From Archaeoglobus veneficus SNP6 (GTDB taxonomy: Archaea; Halobacteriota; Archaeoglobi; Archaeoglobales; Archaeoglobaceae), in contig NC_015320.1 in NCBI RefSeq assembly GCF_000194625.1, positions 682,001 to 746,000 of the forward strand: 64,000 bases of DNA, given 5' to 3'. The stretch's first letter is position 1. Each line of letters opens with the position of its first letter. Both the position numbers and the translations under genes were made by a program. Of the stretch, positions 49,546-55,860 are shown one piece after another. The notes under the pieces were generated by a model. The model searched no databases. It worked only from the letters and a program-made list of their open reading frames with translations, and was not told the origin of the DNA.

Positions 49546-49699
49546 TGGTGCAAAAATACTATTTTACGCCCCCCCCTCAAGTAAAACCATGACTTAGCCG
49601 AACTCGGTAATTACTGCTGTGTGTCTACCAACTTTTACTCTCTCCACACACCTACGAGAAGCGAGCTTATTAAGAACTCTCCTATTAGCAGATCATCTT

Positions 49700-50491
49700 T
49701 TAAAACGTACCTCTCTCAAGCAGCGCAATAATTTTTCCCTCGTCAGTTAAATCTATTCTGTTATATCTTCCCGCTTTTATTCTCTCTATGTATTTCTTGG
49801 ATTCCAGCTTGTCAAGTATACGCCTGTTCAACTTGTTAATGACCTTCTGATATTCTCTACGGTATTCACTACGATCTTTACATTCAATCTTGAATTCCTG
49901 GAATTTCTTCTCCAGCGCTTTTAAAATTTCGTCCGTCTTGGCTTGTCCTCCTTTATTGATTAGGAATGACAGAGTAAATCGTTCCTCTTCGGACAACTTT
50001 GCTATTTCTATTTTCGGAAGCTCTATTATCTCAGGGTCAATGCAGACACTTCTCCCATATTTGAAAAACTCCTCCTCATTTTCATAGTATCTGTCAGGTT
50101 CCACATAGTAAACTGTGCAGTCATGATACCAACCAGCAAGCGAAGCTACTACTGCGATTAACCTACCGAACGCAGAGATATTGATGTAAACCCTTGCTCC
50201 CCTCGTTTTTTCCTGAACTATCAGTTCGGAAATTTTACTAAGTGCAGATTCAAAATTGAAAAGGTCTACATCATGAAACTCCACTTCATAGCCCATTTTT
50301 CTTAAGTCATTTATCACGGCATATGTAAAATATTGCTGCTTTTTGTAAAGATCTGGATCTCGAAGGCGTGCGTTTTCGGGACCTATCGAGAGTATGTGTA
50401 CTTTCTCACCACCAATTTTCCTGATAGCTCTGGTTACAATTGATCTTTCGAATCCAAGCGGTATGATGTGGACTACTCTTAATATTTTCAT
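49700..50491 (-). CDS. CARF-like/DUF6293 winged-helix regulator
   Basis: This 263-residue protein has an N-terminal Rossmann-like domain of the DUF6293/HFX_2341 type (RVVHIIPLGFERSIVTRAI, HILSIGPENARLRDPDLYKKQQYFTYAV, VYINISAFGRLIAVVASLAG). That domain is related to CARF ligand-sensing domains. The C-terminal part is a winged helix (FLINKGGQAKTDEILKALEKK ... KKYIERIKAGRYNRIDLTDEGKIIALL). It probably senses a nucleotide ligand and regulates transcription. The ATG at 50491 lies next to a tandem repeat that may be its own operator. No CRISPR array or cas gene is in the window. Confidence 0.75.
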   Translation of the reverse strand: MKILRVVHIIPLGFERSIVTRAIRKIGGEKVHILSIGPENARLRDPDLYKKQQYFTYAVINDLRKMGYEVEFHDVDLFNFESALSKISELIVQEKTRGARVYINISAFGRLIAVVASLAGWYHDCTVYYVEPDRYYENEEEFFKYGRSVCIDPEIIELPKIEIAKLSEEERFTLSFLINKGGQAKTDEILKALEKKFQEFKIECKDRSEYRREYQKVINKLNRRILDKLESKKYIERIKAGRYNRIDLTDEGKIIALLERGTF

Positions 50492-50509
50492 TGTTATCGA
50501 TGTTATCGT
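50492..50509. promoter_or_regulatory. Tandem 9-bp repeat between the CARF-like regulator and the lipoprotein gene
   Basis: TGTTATCGA and TGTTATCGT lie head to tail immediately upstream of the regulator's ATG, in the short divergent region (50492-50547). Their position over the likely transcription start of the regulator suggests an operator for autoregulation that could also affect the rightward gene set. Confidence 0.45.
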
Positions 50510-50547
50510 AAACATGGTTAAGTATTTTACGGTACATCAAAAAAACC

Positions 50548-51177
50548 ATGATGCCGCTGGCGAAGTGCATTCTTGAACCAAGCGGGCAGAAAATACCGGA
50601 ATTTATAGATGTGGGCAAAACTCTGGCTTTGGCTGTTGTGTGCATTTTAATCGGAATTGTACTGGCGGGATGCGTATCTGAGATCTCTACAAAACCTGCT
50701 GAAACTCCAGAGTTGCTACCAATCAAAACGCAGACACAGGAACCAAGGGGCAGCTATACAAACCCGGCATCCATAGGAGAAACGGTTGTGGTTAAGACGT
50801 TTTCCGGAACATTCGAAGTTGCAGTCCTGGATTATATAAAAGGCGAAAAAGCATACCAAATCATCAAGACAGCCAATATGTTCAATCCAGATCCGGATCA
50901 GGGATTCGAGTATTTGCTGGTTAAAGTTAGATTCAAGTACGCATCGGGCAAAACATCGCAGTACGTTTCTGCTTACAGCTTTGAAGCTTACTGTAATGGA
51001 ACTGGTTATTCACCTGCCTTCGTCGTCTTGCCTAAGGATATGCCAGAATTCAAGAACGTCAATATAATGCCGGGAGGAATGACTGAGGGCTGGATTGCGT
51101 TTATTGTGCCGCAGGGAAAAGATATTTTGATAGCATATGAACATATGTTTGAACCTGTTTGCTTCATTAAAGTTTAA
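50548..51177 (+). CDS. Lipoprotein with DUF4352-like domain
   Basis: This 209-residue protein has a hydrophobic segment followed by a lipobox (IVLAGC, Cys about residue 42), a low-complexity linker (TKPAETPELLPIKTQTQEPRG) and a beta-sandwich domain. That domain resembles DUF4352/Telomere-repeat-factor-like lipoprotein modules (GETVVVKTFSGTFEVAVLDYIKG, FEYLLVKVRFKYASG, MPGGMTEGWIAFIVPQG). The N-terminal PLAKCILEPSGQKIPEF looks like a decayed zinc-ribbon start (one Cys left). It may belong to the rightward island or be independent. Confidence 0.65.
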   Translation: MMPLAKCILEPSGQKIPEFIDVGKTLALAVVCILIGIVLAGCVSEISTKPAETPELLPIKTQTQEPRGSYTNPASIGETVVVKTFSGTFEVAVLDYIKGEKAYQIIKTANMFNPDPDQGFEYLLVKVRFKYASGKTSQYVSAYSFEAYCNGTGYSPAFVVLPKDMPEFKNVNIMPGGMTEGWIAFIVPQGKDILIAYEHMFEPVCFIKV

Positions 51178-51206
51178 GTGATTTTTCAGGTTTGGCAGGT
51201 GGTAGC

Positions 51207-52856
51207 ATGCCAAGCAAGTACGACAGGTACTGGCTGGAAAAGTTAGATGACATTGCAAAGCTTATCGAAGAAGCGTACATCCGTGGCACAAGCAGCAAGC
51301 TTGATGTATCTGACGTCAGGGAGTACGGAAATAGGCAGAACTGGTATGGTGTTGTGGAGGTATCTGACAAGATTAGCAAAGGTGAAATGGCCCATGCCAG
51401 ATCACTTGGAAGGATTGCACTCGAAAGAGGGCTTGTGAGTTCATATAACTGTGCTTTTCGATTTGTAATTTCATCGAATTTAAAGTTGAGAGTAGTGAGG
51501 CTTGGGGGTACTGAAAATAGATCCATTCCAAGGATCGCGGAATGCGTTAAGCGCACATCAATGGCTTCAAAGGTAATAGAAAGCATAGAGGACCGAAAAA
51601 AGAATTTAGCCAAAATCCTTTCAGAAATCTCACTTGAAGCATGGAATCGCATAGTCAAAGAGGAGCCTGAATGGCATTATATGAAACCTTTCCTTAGCCG
51701 CTATGGATTCGGACCTTTTGCGACGCTTATGGTTGTCACAGGGTTGAACGATTTCAAGCTGAAAGGAAGAGCCGAAGTGGCATACTGGCCAAAAATCAGC
51801 AATATTCTCGAGTCATCTCCAGTGCCCGAATCTCCGAGAGGGCTCTATACGATTCTGGAGCAATTTTACAGAAACGAATTATACAACGATTTAAAGGTCA
51901 ATCGCCTTAGTAGATTTCTCTTCAGTCCGCTTGCGGAAAAACTCTGGAACAGCACTCCGAAAACAGTGTCAAGAGAATTTCCGAAAATCTGGAAAGAGCT
52001 AGCGTACACTATGCGACAGAATCCAGAAGCAAAAACAATCAGCTTTGCAATGAAGTGTTTGGCTATAAGCTTGCTCATGGTCGGAGAATATGATTTCGAC
52101 TTCAGCAAGATTCCGATACCCGTCGATTACAGAGTAAGAACCTTCTCAAAAAAGGCAGGGCTCGTTACTACTGAAGATGACAACGAGATTAGGCAAACTT
52201 GGCAGAATGTTCTCGAGCTGATAAAAGGCAGAGAGCCAAAGGTGACGATGATTCACCTTGATAGCCTGGTATGGCAGATTGCCCGTATGAGCAAAAAAGA
52301 AATGCTTGAATATCTCAGCAAAATGGGTTGTCAGAGTGTAGGAGAAAAGATTGTTTCATTTCTTATCGATCCATGTTCCATTGGAACGCATTTCGGGGGT
52401 GAAAACCTGAAGCTGTGTGTTGTACCATGCGGAAGCAGGAAGATATGGGACGTGAATCCCAACGCCGGACCCACTAAAGCGAGAGACGTGTACATCGGCG
52501 CATTTGCGAAGGCCTGCAGGGAATATGCAGAGAAATTCTATCCTAACTCCTACGTCATACTCTCAGCCAAGTACGGCTTCCTCTTTCCCGATGACATCGT
52601 TCCCGAGCCTTATAACGTTACCTTCAACGATCCGTCAACAAATCCAATAAGTGTTGAAGAGCTGAGAAAGCAAGCTGAGGAGAAAGGATTGATGAAGTAC
52701 GATGAAATCGTGGTTATTGCCGGAAGTAATTACGCAAACATTGTCAGAAAAGTTTTCAAGGGCAAAAGGGTCACCACACCGCTAAGTGGGCTTGGAGGTA
52801 TAGGACATATGATTTCTACATTGAAAAGGGCCATAAGTGAAGGGAGGGAGTTGTGA
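51207..52856 (+). CDS. AGOG-type DNA glycosylase fused to a DUF6884 domain and an unknown N-terminal domain
   Basis: This 549-residue, three-part protein begins with residues 1 to about 110, which are unrecognised (YWLEKLDDIAKLIEEAYIRG, ISKGEMAHARSLGRIALERG). Residues about 130-385 match the archaeal 8-oxoguanine glycosylase (AGOG) family. The presumed catalytic Lys is in SFAMKC (near 283) and the Asp in IPIPVDYRV (near 306), followed by MIHLDSLVWQIAR. Residues about 400-549 are a DUF6884 domain (LKLCVVPCGSRKIWD, TKARDVYIGAFAKACREYA, VILSAKYGFLFPDDIVPEPYNVTF). The ATG follows AGGTGGTAGC. It opens a set with the phosphoribosyltransferase and DprA-like genes. Confidence 0.75.
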   Translation: MPSKYDRYWLEKLDDIAKLIEEAYIRGTSSKLDVSDVREYGNRQNWYGVVEVSDKISKGEMAHARSLGRIALERGLVSSYNCAFRFVISSNLKLRVVRLGGTENRSIPRIAECVKRTSMASKVIESIEDRKKNLAKILSEISLEAWNRIVKEEPEWHYMKPFLSRYGFGPFATLMVVTGLNDFKLKGRAEVAYWPKISNILESSPVPESPRGLYTILEQFYRNELYNDLKVNRLSRFLFSPLAEKLWNSTPKTVSREFPKIWKELAYTMRQNPEAKTISFAMKCLAISLLMVGEYDFDFSKIPIPVDYRVRTFSKKAGLVTTEDDNEIRQTWQNVLELIKGREPKVTMIHLDSLVWQIARMSKKEMLEYLSKMGCQSVGEKIVSFLIDPCSIGTHFGGENLKLCVVPCGSRKIWDVNPNAGPTKARDVYIGAFAKACREYAEKFYPNSYVILSAKYGFLFPDDIVPEPYNVTFNDPSTNPISVEELRKQAEEKGLMKYDEIVVIAGSNYANIVRKVFKGKRVTTPLSGLGGIGHMISTLKRAISEGREL

Positions 52857-52891
52857 AGTACGCTAAATTCAGGAAAAGCGAAGAGTAAACT

Positions 52892-53614
52892 ATGTTGGAG
52901 ATTATTTTCATTATAGGTATCGCACTAATATTTTTAATAGCCATTTTTGCCATTAGACATTGGAAAAAATCAAGGGCGAGACTCACTCAGCTTTACGAGC
53001 AAAAAACGATTGAAACTATTGAAGAAAAAGTTGCTTCAGCACCGCACTACTATCTTGGCGAATATATCCCAAAGAAAACCGGTTTGCAAGATGATTTTTC
53101 TTCGTTGATCTTCATGTTCAAGAATTACGGGTCTTTGGGATATAAAGCAAAGCAAGATCTTGTAGATGAATTTACAGTGCAAATTCTGACGATTATTGCA
53201 AAGCATAAAATTAATGCGGACATTGTAATCCCTATTCCGTCAAGCCGTGCTTACACTATAAACGAAGGACTTTTAAGGCTGTGTGAGCAGCTATCTCTTA
53301 TATTGGGCATAGAATGTGGTTTTGCAGCCCTTGAGAGAATTAGAAGCGTTAAAAAGTCTGCGTTTGCAAGCAATCTCATTGATCGTCCATCTTTTGAAGA
53401 CCACTACAGCTCTATGAAGGTCAACCCCATTTATGATTTGAGAGGAAAGAAAGTTATATTACTTGACGATGTTTACACTACGGGCAACACAGCCAGAGCT
53501 GCAGTTCAGAGAATATACGAGGCGGGAGCTGATAAAGTCTGGATCATAACTCTCGCAAAAACAAAAGAGGTGTACTTATTTGGATCTCAACAAAAAACTG
53601 ACAGATTATTTTGA
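52892..53614 (+). CDS. Membrane-anchored ComF-like phosphoribosyltransferase
   Basis: This 240-residue protein has one N-terminal membrane segment (LEIIFIIGIALIFLIAIFAI) and a type I phosphoribosyltransferase domain with a PRPP loop VILLDDVYTTGNTARAA and an upstream ADIVIPIPSSRAYT segment, as in ComF proteins. The usual ComF zinc finger is absent. It starts 35 bp after the glycosylase fusion and overlaps the DprA-like gene by 35 bp. It may make or modify a nucleotide at the membrane; the substrate is unknown. Confidence 0.82.
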   Translation: MLEIIFIIGIALIFLIAIFAIRHWKKSRARLTQLYEQKTIETIEEKVASAPHYYLGEYIPKKTGLQDDFSSLIFMFKNYGSLGYKAKQDLVDEFTVQILTIIAKHKINADIVIPIPSSRAYTINEGLLRLCEQLSLILGIECGFAALERIRSVKKSAFASNLIDRPSFEDHYSSMKVNPIYDLRGKKVILLDDVYTTGNTARAAVQRIYEAGADKVWIITLAKTKEVYLFGSQQKTDRLF

Positions 53615-54254
53615 ATCAAATGTTGTTGAAACTAATAATATGGACGATACGGTTATTCTTGAAATTAAAAAAGACGATGAAGATTACCCGTATCTCCTGA
53701 AGCAGATTACGAAATCGCCCAAGATCCTGTATGCTATCGGAAATACAGACATACTCAATAAACCGGCGATAGGTATTGTTGGTACAAGAAACCCCAGCGA
53801 GATGGGGAAATTTTATGCAAGAAAAGTAGCAGAGTTCTTCTCTGAAAAAGGGTTTGTGATTGTTTCGGGGTTAGCAAAAGGCGTTGATGCCATTGCAACA
53901 GAGACTGCTCTGAACTGCAGTGCGAACGTAATTGCTGTTTTACCCTCGATTGAGAACATAACTCCAAAAGAAAATAAAGATTTGGCCGAAAGAATACTGA
54001 AGAAGGACGGGTTAATAATTTCAGAATTCAGAAATCAGAGAATAAAGAAATACCAGTTTGTTGAAAGAAACAGGGTAATTTCTGGAATTTCATTAGGTAT
54101 TGTTGTTGTAGAATCCGATATAAAGGGGGGAACGATGCACACAGTTAGGTTCGCAAAAGAGCAAAAGAGGCTAATCATAGTTGCCGATGTAGATGCCGAG
54201 GGAAACAAAAGGTTAATAGGAGAGGGTTTCCCCGTTTTCAGATTAGACGTCTAA
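53580..54254 (+). CDS. DprA/Smf-like Rossmann-fold protein
   Basis: This 224-residue protein has the DprA/SLOG core: YPYLLKQITKSPKILYAIGN, GIVGTRNPSEMGKFYARKVAEFFSEKGFVIVSGLAKGVDAIATETAL, VIAVLPS, ISGISLGIVVVESDIKGGTMHTVRFAKEQKRLIIVAD. It lacks the SAM-like and winged-helix domains of bacterial DprA. A TTG start at 53580 is supported by GAGGTG seven bases upstream; an ATG at 53640 is the alternative. It is translationally coupled to the phosphoribosyltransferase. In this setting it may bind a nucleotide rather than load RecA. Confidence 0.8.
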   Translation: MDLNKKLTDYFESNVVETNNMDDTVILEIKKDDEDYPYLLKQITKSPKILYAIGNTDILNKPAIGIVGTRNPSEMGKFYARKVAEFFSEKGFVIVSGLAKGVDAIATETALNCSANVIAVLPSIENITPKENKDLAERILKKDGLIISEFRNQRIKKYQFVERNRVISGISLGIVVVESDIKGGTMHTVRFAKEQKRLIIVADVDAEGNKRLIGEGFPVFRLDV

Positions 54255-54376
54255 CGAATCTCTGAGAATATTGGCAAACTCACTCAAAATTGCATTGTCA
54301 ATAGATTATAGGTTTACATGGACTAACAAGAACAATAATTCAAAATTTTTAAGTCCGTAGTAGTGAATACCCAAAC

Positions 54377-54868
54377 ATGAAACCTGAAAGACCTCACGTG
54401 GAAATCTTAGGTTTTAAAACCCTCGAACCAACAAAGCCGTACCCAGAAATGGAGGAATATGGAGATACTCTGAAATTAAAGATATACGCTGAAATTAATG
54501 GTTCTCGTAGGAACTTTACACTATACGAGATGCTGGAGGAAAATGAAGACAATTTATGTTACGTACTTCTTGGAAACTCCAAAAGACTGGACGGCCAGAG
54601 ATCAAAGGATTTCTGCTATGACGATGAAGGTGTCTTCTTTTCTGCATGGGGCATATCGTGGAAGCGAGATAGAAGGCACAAATTCGATGAAGACGAGGTT
54701 GAAAAAATTTCAAAGATAACAGGTTTCAGATACACGTACAAGCCTGAAAAAAGAGGATTTGTTGTGTATGTCTATCCAAAACGAGCCCCACTATTAACGG
54801 ACAAGCTAAACACTGATTTAATAAAAAGACTTCTCGTTGGCTGGCTTGTATGCTGGGAAATTTTGTGA
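54377..54868 (+). CDS. Hypothetical protein of the island
   Basis: This 163-residue charged protein of no recognised family has beta segments (DTLKLKIYAEINGSRRNFTLYEM, VFFSAWGISWKRD) and a C-terminal helix ending LLVGWLVCWEIL. It starts about 120 bp after the DprA-like gene, with a TATA-like box (tttttaagtcc) upstream, so it may have its own promoter. It ends 10 bp before the next gene, to which it is probably coupled. Confidence 0.6.
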   Translation: MKPERPHVEILGFKTLEPTKPYPEMEEYGDTLKLKIYAEINGSRRNFTLYEMLEENEDNLCYVLLGNSKRLDGQRSKDFCYDDEGVFFSAWGISWKRDRRHKFDEDEVEKISKITGFRYTYKPEKRGFVVYVYPKRAPLLTDKLNTDLIKRLLVGWLVCWEIL

Positions 54869-54878
54869 GGTAAGTATC

Positions 54879-55724
54879 ATGAAGTCATCGAAGTCTAAGA
54901 TAACGAAAATTAAAAGAGTGGCTATTTCAAACGTCGCAGAGGTTACTTTAAGCATAACGAGAGATCTCAGCCAATCTAAGATCGGCAGAATCATCATCGC
55001 GGGCAACTACAGCAGGAAGTTTGAGGATGCAAGGAAGATCCTCGAAAAGGTCACTAAATGCAACTTTGAGGCTGAATACCTCATAACTTGCGGCGGTTTT
55101 GTGAAGTTTCCGTGGGTAAATGGAGACTTTAGCCGGTTGGTTGAGGAGGCTCAGGCGTGGTGTGAAAGACTTCTGAATGGAATTGAAGTTGAAGATATTA
55201 CAGATTACTTGACAATAGGGATCGACTCTTACAGTAATAGAGCAAGCCTTAGAAAGCCACACGTGGAGCTGGTTGGCCTTTACGATGTAGAAAACGACAG
55301 ATGGCACTGGACTGGGAAGAGCTATCCCACACAGGATCAGAAAAAAGGATTGTTGAGGGCAGACTTGGACACACACTTCGTAAGATTGCGAGACAGGGTT
55401 ATGATTCTTGGCTGTCACGATCTGACCATGTTCAATCCGAGAGCCATTGCAAATGCTGGTGGATGGAGAAAAGAGACTATCGAACGCTTTTTGAGCAAAG
55501 CAAGAGAGTTCAAACCCGAAGTGGTTTTGCAGCACCCACACTTCACGGACTCAGTGCGTACTTGGCTTGTATCATGGAGAACTTTGGAAAGGATTCTTAG
55601 TTCCGTCAAACATTATGCCTCGGCTGGGGTTTACTACAGGGAAGGAGGCGAGAGGTCAAAACTCGAAGAGGTCTTGAATGTAACGAAGAAAGGCGAAGTC
55701 ATTGATCTGATTTGTAGGCTATAG
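54879..55724 (+). CDS. Unrecognised protein with enzyme-like HD/HPH motifs
   Basis: This 281-residue protein matches no family I can name. It has patterned alpha/beta segments with polar clusters typical of metal enzymes: IGIDSYSN, DTHFVRLRDRVMILGCHDLTMFNPRA and VVLQHPHFTDSVRTW. The histidines and aspartates after hydrophobic strands suggest a hydrolase- or nuclease-like site; this is inference only. GTGAGGTAAG precedes the ATG at 54879 (an earlier start at 54837 is in frame but inside the previous gene). Confidence 0.6.
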   Translation: MKSSKSKITKIKRVAISNVAEVTLSITRDLSQSKIGRIIIAGNYSRKFEDARKILEKVTKCNFEAEYLITCGGFVKFPWVNGDFSRLVEEAQAWCERLLNGIEVEDITDYLTIGIDSYSNRASLRKPHVELVGLYDVENDRWHWTGKSYPTQDQKKGLLRADLDTHFVRLRDRVMILGCHDLTMFNPRAIANAGGWRKETIERFLSKAREFKPEVVLQHPHFTDSVRTWLVSWRTLERILSSVKHYASAGVYYREGGERSKLEEVLNVTKKGEVIDLICRL

Positions 55725-55784
55725 TTTCTCAGTGTGTACTCTTGCTTCGAAATTCTTATATCCCCCTCAAAAATAATACATATA

Positions 55785-55850
55785 CCCGCCGTTACGGCTG
55801 GAGGGGGCACTTGCCTGCGATGAAGTGCCGTCGGCAAGCCGCCAATTACA
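55785..55850 (+). ncRNA. Candidate small structured RNA, H/ACA-like
   Basis: A G/C-rich island in A/T-rich DNA folds as one hairpin with an internal loop. The lower stem is CGGCT/AGCCG (55795-55799 with 55837-55841). The internal loop is GGAGGG opposite GTCGGCA. The upper stem is GGCACTT/AAGTGCC (55806-55812 with 55823-55829), with a GATG-containing apical loop and ACA at 55848-55850. This layout resembles an archaeal H/ACA guide with a pseudouridylation pocket, though the distance from upper stem to ACA (18 nt) is slightly long. A TATA-like cttatat lies about 26 bp upstream. GCCG-TTA-CGGC at the 5' end is a competing hairpin. Confidence 0.55.
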
Positions 55851-55860
55851 TTATTTAAAT

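Follow-up and report, generated by a model that had tools for sequence, protein, structure and literature searches.

The window, that is the whole 64,000-nucleotide stretch of DNA analysed here, belongs to the genome of a heat-loving archaeon, 1.90 Mb in one contig, and carries a genomic island between ribAB and NIF3 (49546-55860). The GC content of the island is 0.416 against a mean of 0.467, the lowest among 231 stretches of equal length sampled along the window. In a congener (genome G224, locus L103), where synteny with the window is kept on both flanks of ribAB and NIF3, these two genes are separated by about 50 nt instead of 6.3 kb; the island is therefore a clean presence/absence polymorphism between the two. 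Its genes are all open and encode, in order, a CARF-HTH regulator on the minus strand, a DUF4352 lipoprotein, a DUF7664-AGOG-DUF6884 fusion, a membrane phosphoribosyltransferase (PRTase), a short DprA and two proteins without family match. The features are the following:

49546-55860, no strand: whole genomic island, absent in congener G224, lowest GC in the window
49700-50491, minus strand: CARF-winged-HTH regulator of the HFX_2341/DUF6293 family (profile matches, corrected start)
50492-50508, minus strand: tandem 9-bp repeat CGATAACATCGATAACA, candidate operator directly before the CARF start codon, present in 8/8 CARF loci
50516-50530, minus strand: AT-rich, TATA-like stretch AAATACTTAA with a conserved AT-rich core, located about 25 nt upstream of the regulator's ATG
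about 50611-51177, plus strand: lipoprotein with a DUF4352 domain and lipobox LAGC, start uncertain; a neighbour in L023, L025, L026, L027 and L102
51207-52856, plus strand: fusion of DUF7664, AGOG glycosylase and DUF6884, 549 aa (profile matches, alignments)
52892-53614, plus strand: membrane-anchored PRTase, putative ShosT-like toxin (PADLOC, relatives, helix and PRPP loop)
53580-54254, plus strand: DprA Rossmann domain only, putative ShosA-like antitoxin (PADLOC, Pfam), overlapping the PRTase gene
54377-54868, plus strand: 163-aa protein without family match; its relatives have an N-terminal AF2212-like (DUF104) antitoxin domain or a DUF6884 fusion
54879-55724, plus strand: conserved last protein, likely an enzyme, with invariant C-H-D (CHDLTxFNPR) and HxHxTD motifs

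An earlier note on this DNA had named a CARF-like regulator, AGOG-DUF6884, a membrane PRTase, a DprA-like protein and two more genes, and family matches and coordinates agree with these names and with their close spacing (35 nt from the AGOG-DUF6884 gene to the PRTase gene, and a 35-nt overlap of the PRTase and DprA genes). The genes are real; the DUF4352 lipoprotein and the N-terminal DUF7664 were left unnamed there, and the CARF start given as 50515 had to be corrected. Its description of the region as defence-like holds for what is now seen as a defence-like mobile island, consisting of two superimposed modules: a ShosTA-type pair and an Archaeoglobaceae cassette that is interrupted by this pair.

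The PRTase and DprA genes (52892-54254) are assigned from their sequences to a toxin-antitoxin pair of the ShosTA type, a known kind of defence system, and the PRTase is predicted to be toxic. PADLOC models matched the PRTase as ShosT (2.4e-25) and the DprA as ShosA (3.2e-65), in line with the earlier view of PRTase and DprA/SLOG domains as parts of conflict systems, and the short DprA also matched Pfam (6.5e-59). The ShosT model yields weak PRTase matches in nearly every genome, and a threshold of E<=1e-10 was used as a specificity control; at this level 8/8 matches in the 290 genomes adjoin a DprA gene. Ordinary competence genes, a possibility that had been raised before, are not indicated by the curated models: the two miss the cut-offs of comF (37.7 vs 233.6 bits) and dprA (176 vs 191 bits). 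A PRTase-DprA pair protected Escherichia coli from T7 and lambda (PMC9122126). The PRTase RqlH is genotoxic, which requires an Asp of the PRPP pocket, and is neutralised by DprA-like RqlI (PMC4670107), while ShosT was described as disturbing purine metabolism and ShosA as binding DNA (PMC12593503); a ShosA structure is on record (9vzo). The earlier statement that no system with such a set had been described thus overlooked ShosTA, PsyrTA and RqlHI.

The pair shares with ShosTA the adjacency of a PRTase toxin gene and a DprA-family antitoxin gene, the PADLOC matches and an intact PRPP loop (LLDDVYTTGNT, with its acidic residues, aligned with ten archaeal relatives). It differs in being archaeal, in the hydrophobic N-terminal helix of the PRTase (mean Kyte-Doolittle value 3.05 for residues 3-21), in the reduction of DprA to its Rossmann domain and in its embedding within another operon. 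With PsyrTA and RqlHI it has in common a PRTase domain and a DprA-like partner, but the PRTase of the window, a protein of 240 aa, comprises the membrane helix and the PRTase domain only and lacks the RecQ-type helicase domain. Another genome of the same family (G249, L082) has this overlapping arrangement too (identities of 52% and 60%), including the membrane helix of the PRTase, and its contig showed neither an AGOG nor a DUF6884 gene nearby. In other archaea ShosT- or PsyrT-like partners adjoin DprA genes, and the pair also occurs alone; archaeal PsyrTA-like pairs, in which a helicase-PRTase or a PRTase lies beside DprA, were found at L097:376-3700 (G190, a full PsyrT-DprA pair), L098 and L090. 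In phage records a single weak PRTase match was present. Of the rare DprA genes in this archaeal phylum, many are members of such PRTase or helicase-PRTase pairs, and the ShosTA assignment would account for several of them as toxin-antitoxin partners rather than competence genes.

The second module was delimited by BLAST of the window proteins against the neighbourhoods of relatives, the genome searches covering 290 genomes sampled from one archaeal phylum, with two further loci from a general genome scan. It consists of a divergent CARF-HTH gene, the DUF4352 lipoprotein, AGOG with or without DUF7664, DUF6884, a variable gene (a relative of the 163-aa protein or a 240-aa Cys-rich protein) and the conserved last protein, and it was found in at least seven genomes of five genera, at different chromosomal sites, its loci varying in position relative to ribAB. 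This gene set is previously undescribed and has been repeatedly gained and lost. The regulator does belong with the glycosylase-DUF6884 gene, as proposed before, their adjacency being kept in seven genomes: 7/8 of the close CARF genes (E<1e-40, the one of the window included) lie beside an AGOG gene, and the remaining one, in G249, precedes a lipoprotein gene, a helicase gene and the contig end.

The glycosylase-PRTase-DprA trio, which the earlier note had treated as a unit and proposed to look for in other genomes, did not recur: the PRTase and DprA genes were not found in any other fetched AGOG-DUF6884 neighbourhood, and among the genomes with this AGOG subfamily only G000 and G180 have DprA at all, on different contigs in G180. 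In G254 (L024) one ORF, uninterrupted by the pair, comprises the AGOG, DUF6884 and AF2212-like domains together with the 163-aa protein. Given that the flanking modules are joined there, the sequences are most simply read as an insertion of the ShosTA-type pair, in the window, behind DUF6884 and ahead of the gene that follows. Both CARF and DprA/SLOG folds are able to bind nucleotides, and the closeness of the genes speaks for the circuit suggested earlier, in which the glycosylase and the PRTase jointly make a nucleotide signal, starting from the released base, that is bound by the DprA-like and CARF-like proteins. Nevertheless, no other copy of the cassette contains the pair, which occurs alone elsewhere and is a toxin and antitoxin in known relatives; with the trio not being a unit and no support found for a signal from the released base, such a circuit is highly improbable.

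Several features indicate the mobility and turnover of the cassette. The copy of G150 (L025) contains an IS630-like transposase insertion, and that of L026 an rve integrase and an SF1 helicase. SF1 helicase genes follow the lipoprotein gene at L026:11768-13475 and L102:9910-10734, their products being 59% identical to each other. Other copies are split, decayed, interrupted by internal stops or present as fragments only; in G112 and G184 the last gene is found in fragments. The CARF proteins of the window and G150 are 81% identical, the ribAB products 70% and the AGOGs 53%; the excess of CARF over ribAB suggests transfer, and the values are consistent with transfer and mosaic exchange. The AGOG subfamily is patchy, occurring in 15/290 genomes. 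The plasmid matches, among those listed, were to DUF6884 or to one distant AGOG, the latter on a haloarchaeal plasmid (CP095396.1, Natribaculum longum, 187496-188230). The stops and fragments in copies of several genomes might also indicate a passive, decaying island without coordinated host function, in which the ShosTA pair is only a selfish addiction module. This seems improbable to us, as the copy in the window is open throughout, the motifs do not vary from genus to genus and the element at the CARF start is conserved at the nucleotide level.

The regulator matched HFX_2341_N (2e-27), DUF6293_C (5e-19) and PADLOC CARF3 (7e-151), which agrees with the CARF-like ligand domain reported earlier. 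Its start is most likely the ATG at 50491, as the conserved element that precedes this codon led us to correct the start from 50515. The element, a tandem 9-bp repeat (50492-50508) that is unique in the window, takes the form ATAACA-NNN-ATAACA and lies directly before the CARF ATG in 8/8 close CARF loci. The eight segments were extracted with the repeat as the pattern, so that the identity of degenerate third positions within the repeats is given by construction and the finding is the presence of the repeat at this position; downstream of the ATG, the mean identity at third positions is 62%. The AT-rich stretch at 50516-50530 may play a TATA-like role, and the tandem repeat is likely, by analogy, to be an autoregulatory site of the CARF protein: the CARF-HTH protein MM_0565, whose transcript is leaderless, binds to the promoter of its own gene (PMC7465815), and cas genes are repressed by HFX_2341 (PMC11434293). 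The regulator resembles the HFX_2341 and Csa3-like CARF-HTH proteins in its CARF Rossmann domain, DUF6293 winged helix and PADLOC CARF3 match, but represents a subfamily tied to the cassette, with a conserved tandem element at the start site. Should the cassette be defensive, this CARF regulator would gain a concrete, testable operator and a target operon outside CRISPR.

The fusion protein (51207-52856) matched AGOG (1e-24), DUF6884 (1e-16) and, at its N-terminus, DUF7664 (1e-48), the last of which occurs in four genomes only, always within this cassette, and adds nothing independent. The match to the solved AGOGs is weak at the sequence level. In an alignment with them the catalytic K276 and D307 (K140 and D172 of Pae-AGOG) are invariant, and F280, K283, D352 and W356 of the pocket are also kept throughout. 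AGOG reads the N7-H of 8-oxoguanine through a strictly conserved Gln (PMC9638937). This Gln is present in the solved AGOGs and in the canonical AGOG of G132, while the Gln24/31 column is occupied in the window by E155 and by Glu in 14/14 readable members of the subfamily; three MAFFT strategies and a pairwise alignment with Pae-AGOG agree on this placement, and two pairwise phmmer alignments with Thermococcales AGOGs set W156, not E155, opposite the Gln. Since the N7-reading Gln is replaced by Glu, the target may differ from plain 8-oxoguanine, although Glu could still accept the N7-H bond. The change offers a single-residue, directly testable prediction on base specificity and sets the whole subfamily apart from the AGOG 8-oxoguanine glycosylases, from which the protein of the window differs also in its fusion to DUF7664 and DUF6884. 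In the 290 genomes 16 AGOGs scored above the cut-off, 15 of them in this subfamily.

The DUF6884 motifs CxxxK (CGSRK, 408-412) and LSAxxG (LSAKYG, at 452) are kept in cassette members. DUF6884 is YaaA-like, and abasic and ribonucleotide lesions were reported as binding targets of its member YfjM (PMC11701544); the domain of the window scored as the PADLOC candidate PDC-M57A. In other archaea, as at L040:8097-9836 (G223), DUF6884 is N-terminal to an AAA_15/AAA_21 ATPase, which scores as AriA/PtuA-like, and similar DUF6884-ATPase ORFs are found in G091, G101, G121 and G203, the AriA/PtuA score being taken from G223 only. This fusion is possibly a PARIS- or Septu-like variant.

Given the repair-enzyme chemistry of the glycosylase, with all catalytic and most base-pocket residues kept, and the location of several loci among housekeeping genes, the main rival to a defence function is a horizontally spread DNA-repair or stress cassette. 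In it AGOG would remove 8-oxoguanine or a similar lesion, abasic sites would be the target of DUF6884, CARF would sense stress and ShosTA would have hitchhiked. The lesion binding of YfjM and the oxidative-stress role of YaaA (PMC11701544) fit this, as does the position of subfamily AGOGs without DUF6884 beside a tRNA methyltransferase gene (G180) and ordinary genes (G149); the AGOG of the window is also the only one in its genome, and therefore a repair role is possible. On the other side are the replacement of the Gln24 equivalent and a patchiness (15/290), empty congener site, decayed copies and transposon insertions that are unusual for core repair, so that we regard a repair cassette as unlikely, with an appreciable chance nonetheless.

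The cassette's mobility and turnover, its control by CARF and the defence genes beside some copies favour a defence function, and we find it on balance probable that the island is a CARF-controlled, mobile Archaeoglobaceae base-excision cassette of defensive function with an inserted ShosTA-type pair. The G150 copy (L025) lies near a PsyrT/DpdF-like helicase and a type II methylase; the neighbours at L021, L027, L032 and L034 include housekeeping genes, and defence context is not enriched in most loci. In a Brockarchaeota MAG (L022) the AGOG gene, split into two ORFs, and the DUF6884 gene adjoin an HmaA-HmaB defence system.

For a defensive cassette, the CARF-HTH protein, bound to the GATAACA tandem repeat where its own gene starts, would keep the divergent genes low until a ligand of infection or stress reached the CARF Rossmann domain and released them. 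AGOG would then flip out and excise a target base, possibly other than that of its canonical relatives, via a Lys Schiff base and nick the strand; DUF6884, with its YaaA-like fold, might handle lesion or abasic DNA as its family suggests, and the product of the last gene might modify or hydrolyse a substrate. If infection proceeded, the DprA antitoxin would be diverted, and the membrane PRTase, by analogy with its relatives, would disturb PRPP and purine pools and cause cell death. The idea of a mobile glycosylase cassette is shared with Brig1 and Brig3, the latter with an auxiliary hydrolase gene (BapA); the present one is archaeal, CARF-associated and putatively defensive, and the likeness is one of concept. 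A more speculative and rather doubtful proposal is that the Glu-type AGOGs serve as antiviral glycosylases, excising from the DNA of viruses a modified guanine such as a 7-deazaguanine derivative with a positive charge, as part of a CARF-controlled archaeal defence (AGOG, DUF6884 and accessory enzymes) with an origin separate from Brig1/Brig3. If the cassette is defensive, glycosylase-based immunity would be extended to archaea with an AGOG-type enzyme.

The last gene starts most likely at the ATG at 54879. A nitrilase fold was considered for its product on account of the Cys motif and some Foldseek amidase matches, and was rejected, as the HHalign probability was 0.1%, no better than that of controls. 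Fold searches with single-sequence AlphaFold models of this and the 163-aa protein (pLDDT 43-46) gave only noise (TM-scores about 0.3), and no viral relatives of the last protein were confirmed. Relatives of the 163-aa protein are fused to an AF2212-like (DUF104) domain at L024:3-1502 and L025:7665-8150, the copy in the window being without it. The 240-aa Cys-rich protein has a copy with no AGOG nearby at L104:8177-8686, and occupies the slot of the 163-aa protein by DUF6884 at L027:10095-10847, L023:2655-3374 and L029:3804-4370.
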